Source: Chamaesiphon sp. 341R_metabat_111
Lineage (GTDB): Bacteria; Cyanobacteriota; Cyanobacteriia; Cyanobacteriales; Chamaesiphonaceae
Length of the DNA: 34,433 nucleotides
NCBI GenBank assembly: GCA_025351825.1
Contig: JANXVE010000038.1
Coordinates: 1 to 34,433, forward strand
Direction: 5' to 3'
This document shows, in pieces, positions 5,379 to 31,042 of the stretch (within the stretch, counting starts at the first letter, position 1; each line of letters starts with the position of its first letter). The translations under genes were made by a program, and so were the position numbers. The notes beneath the pieces were generated by a model. It had not been told where the DNA came from. It searched no databases and worked only from the letters and a program-made list of their open reading frames with translations.

Positions 5379-5385
5379 TTGTCTT

Positions 5386-5614
5386 GCCTCCTCCCCGCAT
5401 CCTCGGGGAGGACTGAGGTGGGGTATAGATCTCCGCAGCACCAATAAGACTTCTTACCTCCTCCCCTTTCTAAGGGGAGGACTGAGGTGGGGTAGAGATC
5501 TCCGCCTCAAAACCAATAGACTTCGCTTGGAATTGGCATATCCCCCCGATCCCCGCTTGAATTGACGCGGAGATCTATACCCCACCCTAGCCCTCCCCTT
5601 ATAAAGGGGAGGGG
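5386..5614. repeat. Cluster of MITE-like arms: two direct copies and one inverted copy
   Basis: Three related ~50-bp units occur: 5386-5436 and 5456-5505 in one orientation (CTCC..GGGGAGG..GTGGGGTA.AGATCTCCGC) and 5567-5614 inverted (GCGGAGATCTATACCCCACC...). Each carries its own small CCTCCCC/GGGGAGG hairpin. Related arms recur at 12129-12343 and 20792-20840. The 5456-5614 pair has the form of a small element with terminal inverted repeats. It encodes nothing and lies between convergent genes. Confidence 0.75.
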
Positions 5615-5653: not shown

Positions 5654-7000
5654 CTAATGATGCTGGTGATCGTTTAACCAGTAAAAATGAGTATGCTCGA
5701 TCGAAGGATGATCGTGAGCATGGACGTGAATCCCCCCATCGTGCCCGTGCTGATGGAGTAGCTCGTGCTTGTGACTGTGAACATGAGAAATAGCCTCATG
5801 TTCATGACTAGAGGCTGCTGGCGCGAAGGATAACTGCACAAATACCAGCACCGCCAATCCAATCCCGCCGGATATTGAAAACATCCACTCAGAATGCGCT
5901 GTACCAAGCCATCCCGCCAAAGGATAAGCAAAGCCCCACCACAGATGACTCCAGGCAAAATGCGCCGCGTAGACCTGTCCCTGTCGATGTTTGGGGATGC
6001 GATCGCCAATCGCAATCTGAGTCGGCAGATCGATCGCATTTTTACCAATCCCCACACATAGCCATAGTAAAATCAGGCCGAGAAAAGTCGATCGATCTGC
6101 AAAAAACATCGAGATTATCATCAAGATCGCACCGCCAAACATCAGCCAATGACGCGCCAGATATTTTTGCGTCGCAGCCACAATAAGCGCAGCAATCACC
6201 ATCCCCACTCCAAATGCCATCATTGCCCAACCGTACTCTCGATCGCTTAAATGTAAGATCGATCGAATATAACTCACAGTATTGACTAAAACTTGCCCGC
6301 CAATAATTGCACCAACTAATTGTAGTAACAGCGCGTAACGTAAGAATCCATCCCCAAATAATAACCGCGTCCCCATCGTCAATCGCGACCAATAACTAGT
6401 CTGTGGAGCAACTTCAGGGCTAGAACTAGCCACAGTCAACGGCTGACGCACCGAGAGAATTACCAGCGCAGCCAAGAAAAAACTACCGCTATCCAGCCAA
6501 AAAATTGTCCGCGCACCCAACCAACCCGCCATCACCCCAGCCAATCCTGGCCCAATCATACTCAAAGTTTGATAAGTAACTGAAGCCAGAGCCATTGCCG
6601 GAGCATACTCCTGAGGCTGAGTCACAATCGGAATAGTTGCCTGATAAGTCGGCGTGAAACAAGCATGAAAAATATTTATGAGTAGAACAACTGCATACAA
6701 CTGCCAAACAGTCTGAACAAAGGGCAATAGTCCCACCAACAACATCCGAACTACATGAGTACCGACCAAAATCGACTTACGATCTAACTTATCCGCAATT
6801 ATCCCCACAATTGGAGCACAAACAATAAACGCAACAATCCGACAAGTCAGAGCCGTAGCCAAAATACCAGGAGCACGATCTCCAGCCAAATCCACAGCTA
6901 ATAACGCCAATCCCAACCACGTCAGCGCGTCGCCGAGCAAACTAATTGCTTGAGCAGTATATAAGCGGGCAAAAGTTGGATTTTTGAGAGCTTGAAACAT
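5654..7000 (-). CDS. MFS exporter with histidine-rich C-terminal tail (NreB/NrsD-like metal efflux candidate)
   Basis: A 448-aa major facilitator with 12 predicted helices, an MFS loop motif (GIIADKLDRKS) between helices 2 and 3, and start ATG 7000 (the in-frame TTG 7003 is less likely). The last ~50 residues form a hydrophilic tail with 18 histidines arranged as HxH and HxHxH pairs. MFS pumps with this architecture include NreB of Achromobacter and NrsD of Synechocystis, which export nickel, and the histidine tail binds metal. Nickel or cobalt/zinc efflux is therefore the best guess; the metal is inferred from architecture only. A perfect 12-bp inverted repeat lies 58-87 bases upstream, consistent with a metal-responsive repressor, but no regulator gene is adjacent. 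Confidence 0.7.
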   Translation of the reverse strand: MFQALKNPTFARLYTAQAISLLGDALTWLGLALLAVDLAGDRAPGILATALTCRIVAFIVCAPIVGIIADKLDRKSILVGTHVVRMLLVGLLPFVQTVWQLYAVVLLINIFHACFTPTYQATIPIVTQPQEYAPAMALASVTYQTLSMIGPGLAGVMAGWLGARTIFWLDSGSFFLAALVILSVRQPLTVASSSPEVAPQTSYWSRLTMGTRLLFGDGFLRYALLLQLVGAIIGGQVLVNTVSYIRSILHLSDREYGWAMMAFGVGMVIAALIVAATQKYLARHWLMFGGAILMIISMFFADRSTFLGLILLWLCVGIGKNAIDLPTQIAIGDRIPKHRQGQVYAAHFAWSHLWWGFAYPLAGWLGTAHSEWMFSISGGIGLAVLVFVQLSFAPAASSHEHEAISHVHSHKHELLHQHGHDGGIHVHAHDHPSIEHTHFYWLNDHQHH

Positions 7001-7057
7001 CAATTAGCGGTCAACTTCTAGATAATTATGGCAAGAGTAACCCGTACTATTCTCAAA

Positions 7058-7087
7058 ATCAAAATGTTCTTATATGAACATTTTGAT
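7058..7087 (-). promoter_or_regulatory. Probable operator: 12-6-12 perfect inverted repeat upstream of the MFS exporter
   Basis: Arms ATCAAAATGTTC (7058-7069) and GAACATTTTGAT (7076-7087) are exactly complementary around a 6-base spacer. The repeat sits 58-87 bases before the exporter ATG, where a promoter operator is expected. There is no T-run, so it is not terminator-like. GAACAT half-sites are reminiscent of ArsR/SmtB-type metal-sensor sites, but the arm order is not the classical one and the binding family is a guess. Confidence 0.6.
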
Positions 7088-7260
7088 GGAGACCAGCTCG
7101 AAAAACATTCACAAGGAAATAGATATGATGACCTGTAACGAACGATGGATCGATCGAACAACAAAAACGACCTAAATTTGCGATCGAACACATTGCAGCC
7201 AACCGCATTAAAACACTAAATTATAGTACCCCTTCCGGTTGAAAATACTAGTGCTAACCG

Positions 7261-7370
7261 TAGATCCAGGGTACCCCTACAGATAACTTGTAGGGGTGCC
7301 CTCTCTTGTCGTTTTCTTATTCGGGGGTTCCCCCCGAATAAAAACGCCGCTTCATGGGTACCCACGGGAT
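7261..7370. repeat. Dispersed repeat with two hairpins (TGTAGGGGTGCCCT core and GGGGG/CCCCC stem)
   Basis: The first hairpin pairs 7268-7281 with 7289-7302 (13 of 14 bp). The second pairs TTATTCGGGGG at 7317-7327 with CCCCCGAATAA at 7331-7341 around a 3-base loop. The second hairpin and the following CGCCGCTTCATG recur at 30981-31020, and the first recurs at 11088-11121. The rest of the 7001-7424 gap shows no gene. Confidence 0.7.
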
Positions 7371-7424: not shown

Positions 7425-9038
7425 TTAAGAAACAACTGGTTCCGCCACAGCCACAACAGGTTCCATCGCAACCGCCGCCGCCTTGACCTTCGCCTCACCA
7501 GCCAAGAACTCCGCCACCTGAAGCTCAATCTCCGTGCGGACAATCCCCCTGTACTCCAAGAAATGTTCGATTTGGGCACAGACACCCAAATAGCTACTAA
7601 CCCCGCCTGGATTGACCTGGAGCATACTCCAGAGATTGCGCCAGAACTGCCAGCGAGTAGAGCGAACCACCCCTTGTCGCCAGCAAATAGTCAAGAATGC
7701 CTGAATCACAATCCAGCTAATTGCCTTCTTGCGCCCTTCCCCCTTATCGGGATAAGTAGCTTGACCTAGTGTGAGAAAATGGCGGTAAGTTCGATCGAGA
7801 AACTTCGATGGCTCGTATAATTCATCAAAAGCATCCATGTACTCGTAGGCAATTTCTTCCAGCGGACGAGTCGGCACAAAATTCATCAGCGTAGTCTGAT
7901 TGATATTCGCACCCTCTACCCGCATTCGACCTTCCTTGGTCAACCGATGCCACAGAGCGGTATCGGGCAAGGCTTGGAGCATACTAAATACCGCAGTCGG
8001 AATATTTGTCTGCTCGACAAACTGGACGATTCTTTTGCCAGCACCTGTCTTCTCACCATCGAAACCAATGATAAATCCAGCCATCACCCGAATTCCGGTA
8101 GCGGCAATTTTATCAACCGCTTCACTGAGCGAACTGCGCGTATTTTGATGTTTTCGAGTCAGTGCCAAACTTGCTTCATCTGGAGTTTCAATCCCCAAGA
8201 ACACCGCTCCAAAGTTACACTTGACCATTTCATCCATTAGCTCTTGGTCATTTGCCAAATCCACCGAAGCTTCAGTTGCAAAGGAGAATGGATACTTATG
8301 TTCGACCATCCACGGCAAGAGTTCTTTCAAGAATAACTTAACGTTCCGTTTATTACCGATGAAATTGTCATCCACCATAAAAATACTCCGCCGCCAACCC
8401 AACTCGTAGAGATAGTCGAGTTCTGCCAGTAGCTGTTCTGGGGCTTTAGTACGGGGTTTGCGACCGTATAGCACGATAATATCGCAGAATTCACACTGAA
8501 ATGGACAGCCCCGCGAAAACTGCACCGACATCTCGGCATAAGCATCGAATTCCAACAGTTCAAACCGAGGCACTGGCGTAATTGTCACATCGGGACGTTC
8601 CCCATTCGGAGCGCGGAAGGTACCCGACTGTTGCCCTTGAGCGACTGCTTCGACAAATAACGGAATTGTTAGTTCGCCTTCATCCAAAATTAAATAATCG
8701 GCAAAGTCTGACACCTCGTGAGGTAATGCCGTCGGGTAGGGTCCCCCAACCGCCACTTTTTTACCACGGCGTTTAGCTTCTTGGATCTGAACCAATAAAT
8801 CTGGTTTTTGGACGATCATTGCCGAGCAAATCACCATTTCCGACCAGTTCCACTCGGCTTCAGTTACTTCCCGCACGTTCAAATCGACGAGCTTATAGTT
8901 CCACTCTTGGGGCAAAATTGCAGCGACAGTAATCAGTCCCAGCGGTGGTAACATGGCTTTGCGACCGAGCAGTTCGATCGTTTTTTCAAATGACCAGAAA
9001 CTTTTGGGGAAGCGAGGGTAGAGAAGTAGAACGTTCAT
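7425..9038 (-). CDS. B12-binding-domain radical SAM protein, DUF4070 family
   Basis: A 537-aa radical SAM enzyme. Residues 1-130 form the cobalamin-binding-like Rossmann domain (MNVLLLYPRFPKSFWSFEKT; LGLITVAAILP; AVGGPYPTALP). The 4Fe-4S motif CPFQCEFC gives ligands Cys178, Cys182 and Cys185. Then come the SAM-barrel features (FMVDDNFIGNK, FLGIETPDE, GFIIGFDGE) and a C-terminal DUF4070-type region. The tail is Ala/Val-rich. The start is placed at ATG 9038, which has a TTTGGAG ribosome binding site; a longer in-frame start at 9062 is less likely. Class B radical SAM proteins include methylases such as the hopanoid 2-methylase HpnP, but the substrate here is unknown. No hopanoid or tetrapyrrole genes are nearby. 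Confidence 0.85.
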   Translation of the reverse strand: MNVLLLYPRFPKSFWSFEKTIELLGRKAMLPPLGLITVAAILPQEWNYKLVDLNVREVTEAEWNWSEMVICSAMIVQKPDLLVQIQEAKRRGKKVAVGGPYPTALPHEVSDFADYLILDEGELTIPLFVEAVAQGQQSGTFRAPNGERPDVTITPVPRFELLEFDAYAEMSVQFSRGCPFQCEFCDIIVLYGRKPRTKAPEQLLAELDYLYELGWRRSIFMVDDNFIGNKRNVKLFLKELLPWMVEHKYPFSFATEASVDLANDQELMDEMVKCNFGAVFLGIETPDEASLALTRKHQNTRSSLSEAVDKIAATGIRVMAGFIIGFDGEKTGAGKRIVQFVEQTNIPTAVFSMLQALPDTALWHRLTKEGRMRVEGANINQTTLMNFVPTRPLEEIAYEYMDAFDELYEPSKFLDRTYRHFLTLGQATYPDKGEGRKKAISWIVIQAFLTICWRQGVVRSTRWQFWRNLWSMLQVNPGGVSSYLGVCAQIEHFLEYRGIVRTEIELQVAEFLAGEAKVKAAAVAMEPVVAVAEPVVS

Positions 9039-9143
9039 GAGATTATCTCCAAATAACGGCATTCCCCGTTAGGTAGAATGATGGACGTGTATTACTAATT
9101 GACTATAGTTTAGTCGCTTTTGTTTCGATCGGGTCTAAAATCA

Positions 9144-9686: not shown

Positions 9687-10928
9687 TTATACTTTTTGAC
9701 TTTTGGGGTCGGGTTTGAGTGCGAACGTTGCAATTAGGATGCCCAGAATTGAGAGAATTGCAGTGGGAATAAAGGCATTGGTATAGCTACCAAAAATATC
9801 TTTGGCATTACCAGCAACTAGTGTCCCAGCTAAAGCTCCTGCCCCATAAGCTGTAAAAACTATGCCATAGTTTTTAGTGTAATTAGAAGGGTTGAACATC
9901 GATAGTGTGGCCGTAGGTGCGATCGCGAGCCATCCACCTAGAGATAACCAGAGTAAACTGAAAGCAAAAAAGTAGTTGACAACTTGATCTCTACCAGTAT
10001 TTAACATCACGATCGAAGCAACTAAAATCATCACATAAGAGAGGATCGCGGCCATTTTGGGCTTGATTCGATCGGTTAACCAGCCGAAAATTGGGCGACC
10101 AATGCCGTTAAAGATGGCAAAAATCGATACCGATGCCGTAGCTGTATCGGTGTCCAGTCCGATGATTTCTTTGCCGACGTTAGTTGCAATCCCCACCGCC
10201 ATCAAACCAGCCAGGGTACCGATCGCATAGCAGCTCCACAGTGCAAAAAAGCTCGGCGAACTCAGCAACCGATCTGGCTCGGTACTAGCTCGGCTGGGAA
10301 TAGACTGGGGACTGGGTTGCCAGTTTGCTGGCGGAAACCTAAGCTGGGTCGAGATCGCCACTAAAATCACTGTAAAAGCTACACCAAGAATTCTAAACGC
10401 GCTGTCGATGCCATAAGTATCGATCAGAAACTTGGCGAGGGGTGCCGTAATCAATGGTGATAGACCAAAGCCAACTACAGTTAAACCGACAGTCAATCCC
10501 TTGAGATCGGGAAACCACTTAGCAGTAACAGAGATCGGCACACCATAGACAATTCCAACGCCAGCTCCAGCAATCAAACCATAAGTCACAATAAGTAAGG
10601 GAATACTGGTGGCAAAACTGGACAAGAAATACCCCAAACCAACAATTGCCCCCCCGACAGCAGTTACTTTAGCTGCACCATAACGTTCGATGTATCTACT
10701 TGCGATCGGCATCAAAATGGCAAATACTACCAGCAATGTCGCAAAAGGTAACAATGTGTCGGTTGCCCCAACGGTCACTTTTTGCAGTTTAAAAGCTTCT
10801 GTCAGCGGCTTGCGAAAAATGCTCCAGGAATAAACCGTACCCAAGCAGAGCATCGCTGTAATGCCCAGCGGTAAAAATAGCCATCGACCTTGCCGAGCAG
10901 GTAAGCCAAATACTTTCAGGTCGTTCAC
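9687..10928 (-). CDS. OFA-family MFS transporter (oxalate/formate antiporter-like)
   Basis: A 413-aa, 12-helix major facilitator. Diagnostic OFA features are the first-helix signature GTVYSWSIFRKPL, the YGLIAGAGVGIVYGVPI segment in helix 4, the RPIFGWLTDRI loop after helix 8, and the overall length. The family transports monocarboxylates or dicarboxylates such as oxalate/formate, lactate or pyruvate; the substrate here is unknown. The start is GTG 10928, preceded only by a weak AAAAAGA. It is on the same strand as the Dnd-associated-like gene, 57 bases upstream of it, so the two may share a transcript. Several small inverted repeats lie in the 10929-11114 upstream region, but none is strong enough to call an operator. 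Confidence 0.85.
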   Translation of the reverse strand: MNDLKVFGLPARQGRWLFLPLGITAMLCLGTVYSWSIFRKPLTEAFKLQKVTVGATDTLLPFATLLVVFAILMPIASRYIERYGAAKVTAVGGAIVGLGYFLSSFATSIPLLIVTYGLIAGAGVGIVYGVPISVTAKWFPDLKGLTVGLTVVGFGLSPLITAPLAKFLIDTYGIDSAFRILGVAFTVILVAISTQLRFPPANWQPSPQSIPSRASTEPDRLLSSPSFFALWSCYAIGTLAGLMAVGIATNVGKEIIGLDTDTATASVSIFAIFNGIGRPIFGWLTDRIKPKMAAILSYVMILVASIVMLNTGRDQVVNYFFAFSLLWLSLGGWLAIAPTATLSMFNPSNYTKNYGIVFTAYGAGALAGTLVAGNAKDIFGSYTNAFIPTAILSILGILIATFALKPDPKSQKV

Positions 10929-11087: not shown

Positions 11088-11121
11088 GGGCACCCCTACA
11101 GGTTAATTGTAGGGGTGCCCT
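11088..11121. repeat. Hairpin repeat upstream of map
   Basis: GGGCACCCCTACA at 11088-11100 pairs with TGTAGGGGTGCCC at 11108-11120 around a 7-base loop. The same core appears at 7268-7302. It lies between the divergent OFA-transporter and map genes. Confidence 0.7.
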
Positions 11122-11241: not shown

Positions 11242-12063
11242 ATGAATATTCTCACCGACTTACTCAAGCCTCAAGCCACCCGCGAAAAGAAGCAATCAAA
11301 GGGAATCCAGATTAAAACTGAGCGCGAAATTGGCATCATGCGCCAATCTTCAAAAATTGTCGCTACAGTTTTGAAAGAAATTTTGGGGATGGTAGAGCCA
11401 GGGATGACTACCGCAGATTTGGATGCTTATGCAGAAAAAAGGATTCGGGCGATGGATGCGATTCCTAGTTTCAAGGGTTTGTATGGGTTTCCAGCAACTA
11501 TTTGTGCCAGCATCAATGATGAAGCAGTGCATGGCATCCCCCACCGCAAGAGAGTGATCAAGCAGGGCGATGTGCTCAAAGTTGATACTGGAGCGTTCTT
11601 TCAGGGCTTTCACGGCGATTCTTGCATCACGATCGGCGTAGGCACCGTTACCCCTGCTGCTGCTAAACTAATTCGGGTAGCTGAAGAAGCCCTCTATAAG
11701 GGCATAGAACAGGTGAAAGAGGGTGCTTACCTCCTAGACCTCGCAGGAGCAGTTCAAGACCACGTCGAGGCAAATGGCTTTAGTATCGTCGAAGATTTTA
11801 CCGGACATGGAGTAGGGCGAAATCTCCATGAGGAACCATCGGTATTTAATTTCCGCACGCGGGAGATGCCAAATGTGAAGTTGAGAGCGGGGATGACGAT
11901 CGCGATCGAGCCAATCATCAATGCTGGCTCGAAGATTACCAAAATGATGCCAGATAAGTGGACTGCTGTCACGATCGACAAGTCTTTATCGGCTCAATTC
12001 GAGCACACTGTGCTGGTAACTAAAGATGGCTATGAGATTTTAACCGATCGGAATTTAGTTTAA
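11242..12063 (+). CDS. map: Type I methionine aminopeptidase
   Basis: A 273-aa M24-family metallopeptidase that removes N-terminal methionine from nascent proteins. Metal ligands are all present: Asp115 (KVDTGAF), Asp126 (HGDSC), His189 (GHGVGR), Glu223 (AIEP) and Glu254 (FEHTV); His97 (DEAVHGIP) is the usual substrate-side histidine. The catalytic core begins near residue 22 ([13 protein letters not shown]). The first ~20 residues are a basic extension whose start ATG 11242 lacks a clear Shine-Dalgarno, so a slightly later start (for example ATG 11338) is formally possible but would remove conserved sequence. The stop is 3 bases before a long perfect palindrome. Confidence 0.93.
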
Positions 12064-12066
12064 TCG

Positions 12067-12124
12067 ACTCAAGCAAAATAGGTAGGGGCAATTCATGAAT
12101 TGCCCCTACCTATTTTGCTTGAGT
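12067..12124. repeat. 58-bp perfect palindrome downstream of map
   Basis: Positions 12067-12095 and 12096-12124 are exact reverse complements with no spacer; the centre is ATTCATGAAT and the flanking part is GGTAGGGGCAATTC and its complement. Transcribed, it would fold into a 29-bp hairpin, perhaps stopping map transcription although no T-run follows. Its core GTAGGGGC resembles the other short hairpin repeats of this window. Confidence 0.95.
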
Positions 12125-22698: not shown

Positions 22699-23094
22699 TG
22701 GAGCTGGGCAGAGTCGAACTGCCGTCCGCCCTGGGTATTAACTTTCCGCTCATTCACAGGTATAGTCTATCTAATCCTCAAGACGGGAGTGACCAATTGT
22801 CCCAGGTCGCAGGATGCTCTGATGAATCTTAGTTATTTAGCCCACCAGAGAAAACTAAATAAAGCATCCGTTGAGGGTTATCTATAGTATTTAACGGAGT
22901 CATACTATAAATGCTCGACCTTAGAAATTAATCTTAAGAGTTTTTTTAAGCGGCTACTGGAGCTGCTTTACGAGCGAAAGGTACAATGTTGTTTGCATCT
23001 AAATTTATTTGAGCCGATATTTACGAGAGTGGACTCCCTCTCGACCTGAATCACAGTGCAGCTTTCGCCAACACGTCGAAACCTTTACAGCCCC
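22699..23094 (-). ncRNA. ssrA: Transfer-messenger RNA (tmRNA)
   Basis: The 5' end GGGGCTG (23094-23088) pairs with CAGCTCC at the 3' end to make a 7-bp acceptor stem, followed by discriminator A at 22699. CCA is not encoded. The T-arm GTTCGACTC and the 5' GGTTTCGACG segment are typical of one-piece tmRNA. The resume codon GCA starts at 22996 and the tag frame runs to TAA at 22946, giving ANNIVPFARKAAPVAA, a cyanobacterial tag. It rescues stalled ribosomes together with SmpB. Confidence 0.97.
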
Positions 23095-30913: not shown

Positions 30914-31042
30914 GGTAATGTCTTGTCGGTGTCTTGACGCACACAAACGGGAGGTTTCCTCTCGTTTGATGTATCGCTTTTTTATTCGGAGGTTCCCTCC
31001 GAATAAAACCGCCGCTTCATGAATTACCCCTACCCTAGATCT
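30902..31042. repeat. MITE-like element, ~141 bp, with internal hairpins
   Basis: The ends GATTTAGGGTAGGGTAAT (30902-30919) and ATTACCCCTACCCTAGATC (31023-31041) are imperfect inverted repeats. Inside are a hairpin at 30945-30967 and a perfect 12-bp stem TTTATTCGGAGG (30981-30992) / CCTCCGAATAAA (30996-31007). The latter and the following CGCCGCTTCATG are shared with 7317-7355. It provides the last codons of the broken nuclease-like gene. Confidence 0.75.

Follow-up and report, generated by a model that had tools for sequence, protein, structure and literature searches.

Multi-copy small RNAs of cyanobacteria include the Yfr2 family. Prokaryotic MITEs, another class of short elements, are normally intergenic, as stated in the available part of PMC10969869. 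The nickel exporter NrsD of Synechocystis PCC 6803 is presented in the available part of PMC4284471 as an MFS permease whose C-terminus is rich in histidine and which is under the control of NrsRS and InrS. CsoR sites are described as G-tract pseudopalindromes (PMC3902906, available in part).

The window analysed here (the whole stretch of 34,433 nucleotides; contig C2 of genome G000, 4.06 Mb in 202 contigs) comes from a genus that was analysed in nine genomes (G000-G008) and is Chamaesiphon by named records. It encodes a protein resembling the NrsD and NreB nickel exporters: it is an MFS permease, and its C-terminus is rich in histidine (NrsD was compared by its partly available description). 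Unlike nrsD, the gene is solitary, without recognised nrsBAC- or nrsRS-like genes alongside. An inverted repeat lies ahead of it, as in the InrS/CsoR operators of nrsD-like genes; unlike these operators, however, the repeat contains no G-tract. It belongs to a 194-bp non-coding element, of which it forms the 3' hairpin (Table 1). The annotation of a metal exporter thereby loses a probably false operator and gains a genus-specific non-coding element, which was found in each of the nine genus genomes examined and is conserved well above its flanks. If transcribed, the element would represent an RNA regulator specific to the lineage of this little-studied cyanobacterium.

Table 1. Features of the exporter gene and of the region upstream of it (positions in the window).
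Feature	Position	Strand	Basis
MFS exporter gene, NrsD/NreB-like	5654..7003	minus	ORF, 449 aa from TTG; MFS_1 and MFS_3 matches
Histidine tail of the exporter	5657..5806	minus	50 codons, 18 His, 11 HxH steps
Conserved 194-bp non-coding element (copy B in G000)	7039..7232	minus	covariance model R1, 176.1 bits (not independent, R1 having been built from 13 copies including this one)
Short T-run after the hairpin	7055..7058	minus	TTTT here, longer in other copies; consensus scan without terminator call
Palindrome, 3' hairpin of the 194-bp element	7058..7087	minus	-13.2 kcal/mol as RNA, z -5.4
-10-like box TATAAT, towards the 5' end of the element	7220..7225	minus	sequence; no full sigma-70 promoter flagged

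The exporter and its relatives

Pfam profiles place the exporter in the MFS fold family (PF07690, E 5.7e-36; PF05977, E 4e-15); the nearest NCBIfam model is TIGR00900, with a score under the cut-off of the model. Translation starts more probably at the ATG at 7000 than at TTG, judging from an 81% identical ortholog that begins there. The named records nearest to the exporter are Chamaesiphon MAGs with 87% and 81% identity (the loci of the sister genomes are L007 = G007:C375 and L008 = G004:C28). Most matches are annotated as 'MFS transporter'; the plasmid protein H2, annotated as 'nickel resistance protein', matches at 47.5%, and H8 at 45.3%.

The first-pass annotation had described a C-terminal tail with 18 histidines in HxH patterns, comparable to NrsD and NreB, and this tail is indeed present. 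Among 80 relatives, 47 possess at least 10 histidines within the last 60 residues. The other 33 include four truncated readings and are mostly records from Bacteroidota, Ignavibacteria or Deinococcota; about 10 are cyanobacterial. Neighbours were listed for 46 of the 80 relatives, picked mainly by the histidine tail, and Pfam was run on 14 neighbours. As in the nrs setting, some relatives adjoin RND pumps (L021, L026, L055) or metal regulators, i.e., a CsoR-family repressor (L036) and a response regulator (L038). Furthermore, a P-type ATPase with a heavy-metal domain (L047), histidine kinases (L029, L034), a TetR regulator (L011) and a DUF326 protein (L030) were found next to relatives, as were unrelated or unassigned proteins (RuBisCO small subunit, L012; XisI, L053; DUF3084 and a protein of no family, both L009). 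No regulator gene was recognised beside the window exporter by domain search of the window ORFs. The histidine tail, its spread among the relatives and the metal-efflux neighbours of some of them make it well supported, by analogy, that the protein is an ordinary NrsD/NreB-like metal efflux pump. Directly 3' of the gene (5382-5612) there are repeats with CCTCCCC...GGGGAGG hairpins and GAGGTGGGGTA motifs.

The palindrome as a presumed operator

In the first-pass annotation, metal efflux was combined with control by a metal-sensing repressor encoded elsewhere, for which the palindrome would be the operator. The efflux part agrees with the analysis of the exporter; the operator part found no support. 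The palindrome itself, ATCAAAATGTTC-TTATAT-GAACATTTTGAT, is the exact 12-6-12 inverted repeat that had been reported, and if one mismatch is allowed it extends to arms of 15+15 without a spacer. Even with up to 3 mismatches allowed, the window contains no second match (100 shuffles gave an expectation of 0). Inverted repeats with arms of at least 12 and a loop of at most 12 occur five times in the real window vs 0 in 15 first-order Markov shuffles, and 13 have arms of at least 10. The palindrome is non-random, yet it is not unusual among the hairpins of the window.

A regulon sharing this site was rejected. The 24-base core, AAAATGTTC-N6-GAACATTTT, has one further exact copy in its own genome (G000:C65:40761-40784; L002:1501-1524), which falls within a radical-SAM gene (ArsS-like by eye), where it corresponds to the codons KMFFKEHF, and is therefore regarded as a coincidence. 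Looser matches with 2-3 mismatches were not more frequent in this genome than those of a reversed control pattern, and ATCAAAATGT-N(6-16)-ACATTTTGAT occurs in it once. When the core was searched in the order and 21 loci were read (L147-L167), 11 lay within radical-SAM genes, again ArsS-like by eye; the remaining 10 are intergenic or at gene edges, without explanation. In many cyanobacteria these KMFFKEHF codons, which are conserved in the ArsS-like gene, read as the perfect palindrome, which makes them a trap for motif searches.

The operator reading has in its favour that the palindrome lies 55-84 bases upstream of the first listed codon of an exporter of metal-efflux type, and that some relatives do have such sites. 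In L041, for example, CGTATCCCCCCTGGGGGGATACG precedes the aligned start by about 36 bases; this is a G-tract palindrome, the kind expected of a CsoR/InrS-type site. However, inverted repeats with arms of at least 10 were found within 250 bases upstream of just 4 of the 80 relatives, and the sister locus L007 is the one with the sequence of the window. Even there, in G007, the outer arms are kept but the centre and the spacing are altered. No element is present upstream of the G004 exporter, the closest other one (81% identical to that of the window). The palindrome arms are kept in 3 of 11 genomes of the family, in G003 at two sites unrelated to any exporter, and the flanks of the arms are alike too. 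Between genomes, the site does not follow the metal gene: copies of the element adjoin cobK, a kinase gene, an aldo/keto reductase gene and others. Sharing of the site with unrelated repeat copies had been named in the first-pass annotation as evidence against an operator; such sharing is seen across the genus, but its own genome has just one other, diverged copy of the element. A repressor of the CsoR type was not found either: genes of the CsoR/RcnR/InrS type (PF02583, E 1e-5) were detected in none of the nine genomes of the genus, whereas 6 of 14 named control genomes were positive. We regard control of the exporter through this palindrome as very improbable.

Extent and distribution of the 194-bp element

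A 69-base composite query, made from copies of three genomes, matched all nine genomes of the genus, with a best E value per genome of 3e-9 or lower; the matches include six genomes that were not used in composing it. Longer alignments revealed a unit of ~194 bases with sharp ends. The covariance model R1 was built from 13 copies. As all nine genomes supplied copies for it, its detection of the element in 9/9 genomes is not independent, and the 69-base query is the better evidence. Using R1, 16 intact copies were found (2, 1, 1, 2, 3, 3, 2, 1 and 1 in G000-G008, respectively), numbers that are lower bounds because several genomes are incomplete. The identity comparison was limited to these copies and left aside a split copy in G003, a 106-base piece on G004:C5 and, where contig G006:C54 ends, half a copy. 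The split copy (L172:133-1165, on G003:C52) precedes a DUF790 gene; the insertion that interrupts it is bounded by a 34-base inverted repeat and carries an ORF without Pfam match.

In the sister genus, R1 did not detect the element in either of two genomes. In an order sample of 291 genomes, searched with stricter filters at which weak matches are lost, 38 of the 282 genomes outside the genus gave weak matches of at most 32.8 bits, mostly to the hairpin alone. The equally filtered phylum sample (386 genomes, including one of the genus) reached E 1e-5 in G000 only. Possible distant homologues in G166, G178, G244, G272 and G259 (24-30 bits) were treated as chance matches because the GTAC ends were absent on reading. 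There was no match to the element on phages or plasmids.

Positions of the copies and their conservation

The window copy is separated from the ATG of the exporter by 38 bases and lies in the interval between this gene and a radical-SAM gene; the same interval holds a copy in G007. The radical-SAM gene (7425-9062) encodes a B12-binding protein with DUF4070 that is present in eight of the nine genomes. Its best matches in seven other genomes of the genus are 85-98% identical, whereas relatives of the exporter beyond G004 and G007 do not exceed 50%. No clean empty site was seen at this position in the six other loci read. The second copy of this genome (G000:C85:22854-23047) is situated 32 bases past the CbiJ/CobK gene and ahead of a convergent gene, which resembles the DUF790 gene adjoining the G003 copy. 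The position after cobK is also occupied in G005, G006 and G008. The cobK-like gene of G004 has one internal TAG (L183; G004:C86:149-886). Further common positions are the interval between an unassigned gene and the aldo/keto reductase gene (G003, G006), the one after a PknG-like kinase gene (G003, G004) and the one after an unassigned gene (G001, G002). Of 14 copies assessed, 13, at six positions, are downstream of the neighbouring gene and on the same strand, and one is opposite. As the downstream genes differ in kind and direction among the copies, a riboswitch for the exporter was rejected.

For ten pairs of copies at common positions (among the 16 intact ones), the element is 60-92% identical vs 39-61% for the 100-base flanks and 44-48% for shuffled sequences; the flank values of 57-61% stem from the cobK position. 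This difference from the flanks suggests that the element is under selection.

In the phylogenetic tree, copies group by position at the radical-SAM gene (100/99) and in G001/G002 (94/91), as do two of those after cobK (95/89), but the pairs next to the aldo/keto reductase gene and the kinase gene are not united. Moreover, G003_C is paired with G004_b (97/95), and G004_D with a copy from its own genome, G004_abc (84/78). The pairings across positions and within one genome make some movement or conversion of copies possible.

A domesticated MITE is the main rival explanation. Like MITEs and ERIC-like repeats, the element is short and intergenic, has candidate inverted ends and keeps a constant length near 194 bp; its several copies are at positions that partly differ between genomes, and the grouping of G004_D with G004_abc is what duplication or conversion would produce. 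The ends of the element are alike in inverted orientation (mean score 15.4 vs 12.3 for shuffled sequences). However, the ends match no better within one copy than between different copies, and reading of the flanks revealed no obvious target duplication. Unlike MITEs and ERIC-like repeats, the element has 1-3 intact copies per genome and is kept at common positions above the conservation of the flanks, although unselected copies should have decayed as the flanks did. Nor was an autonomous partner found on plasmids or phages. We consider a MITE origin unlikely, though a serious competitor.

Hairpin, ends and a candidate small-RNA gene

The hairpin is A/T-rich and followed by T, and it folds in all five copies tried (-8 to -15 kcal/mol). 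Its cells are paired to 96% in 15 copies vs 27-58% when the pairing is slid. Eight of the 11 pairs are invariant, the ordinary columns have no two-sided change, and 115 of 500 shuffles pair equally well. In four cells, from four copies, A-U is changed to G-U, by which pairing in RNA is kept and DNA symmetry is broken. In addition, an A-U insertion is paired in two copies; an extra A in one arm is unpaired in five. The G-U cells and the paired insertion are more consistent with a hairpin in RNA than with a palindrome in DNA.

These data also bear on a conserved DNA site, i.e., binding of a chromosome-organising or transcription protein, for example, to the palindrome and the nearby bases. Such a site would account for a conserved, low-copy, intergenic element without supported RNA structure past the hairpin, but not so readily for conservation over ~190 bases, for the loss of DNA symmetry in the G-U copies or for the spacing of the hairpin arms, which varies by one base among copies. 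We regard a DNA site as improbable.

No conserved RNA helix besides the hairpin was supported in the element alignment: the best other helix scored 0.68, within the shuffled range of 0.16-0.97. A wider RNA fold was rejected, as RNAalifold gave weak long-range pairs in one alignment and the hairpin alone in the R1 alignment. The window element on its own folds with z -2.64. At the 5' end, TANNNT is present in 15 of the 16 copies vs 2-6 of 16 in five other regions, a post hoc count, since the -10-like box had been spotted before counting. The consensus scan of the window called neither a sigma-70 promoter nor a terminator at the element.

The combination of a -10-like box at the 5' end with a hairpin and T-run at the 3' end is suggestive of a small-RNA gene. 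We give this reading, in which the element represents a candidate small-RNA gene family, about an even chance. Transcription would begin just past the TANNNT box, and the putative transcript of ~160 nt would end at the hairpin and T-run. It would be a trans-acting RNA, and the exporter gene downstream would be a separate metal efflux gene of the NrsD type. The GTAC motifs at the two ends of the element resemble terminal inverted repeats; they count against a small-RNA gene, which does not need them. Like Yfr2-type RNAs, the element is non-coding, intergenic, conserved and present in more than one copy in several genomes; unlike them, it has no Rfam match, was found in one genus only and is an RNA by prediction. 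Searches of the open-licence PMC literature on Chamaesiphon non-coding RNAs, repeats and MITEs, and on cyanobacterial MITEs and multi-copy small RNAs, yielded nothing recognisable as the element among the papers listed. A more specific proposal, to which we assign somewhat less than an even chance, is that of a family undescribed in the searched sources and specific to Chamaesiphon, with its own -10 box and the palindrome as a terminator-like structure, selected at several chromosomal positions and trans-acting; the matching GTAC-TATT end motifs might even drive convergent sense/antisense transcripts.

Several other candidates were rejected. Some copies have ~50 open codons, but the stop-free length is like that of shuffled sequences (mean 49.4 vs 45.9); there is no codon periodicity in the element, and frames break, so that a small protein was discarded. 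6S RNA (RF00013) was matched in seven of the nine genomes, never at the element; in this genome it is located at G000:C197:12915-13103. Rfam matched the element nowhere: 11 loci yielded four matches at E ≤1, all under the gathering score and outside the element.

Other features of the window

A perfect 58-base palindrome with 29-base arms and no loop (12067-12124) is found just past the ORF 11242-12063 (methionine aminopeptidase by eye). Two further hairpin types each occur twice in intergenic regions, one with TGTAGGGGTGCCC arms (7268-7302 and 11088-11120) and another with TTATTCGGRGG arms (7314-7344 and 30980-31008); both are likely to be dispersed repeats or terminators. A second MFS gene (9687-10928) scores above the cut-off of the L-lactate transporter model NF049980, and a tmRNA gene is present at 22699-23094 (tag ANNIVPFARKAAPVAA).
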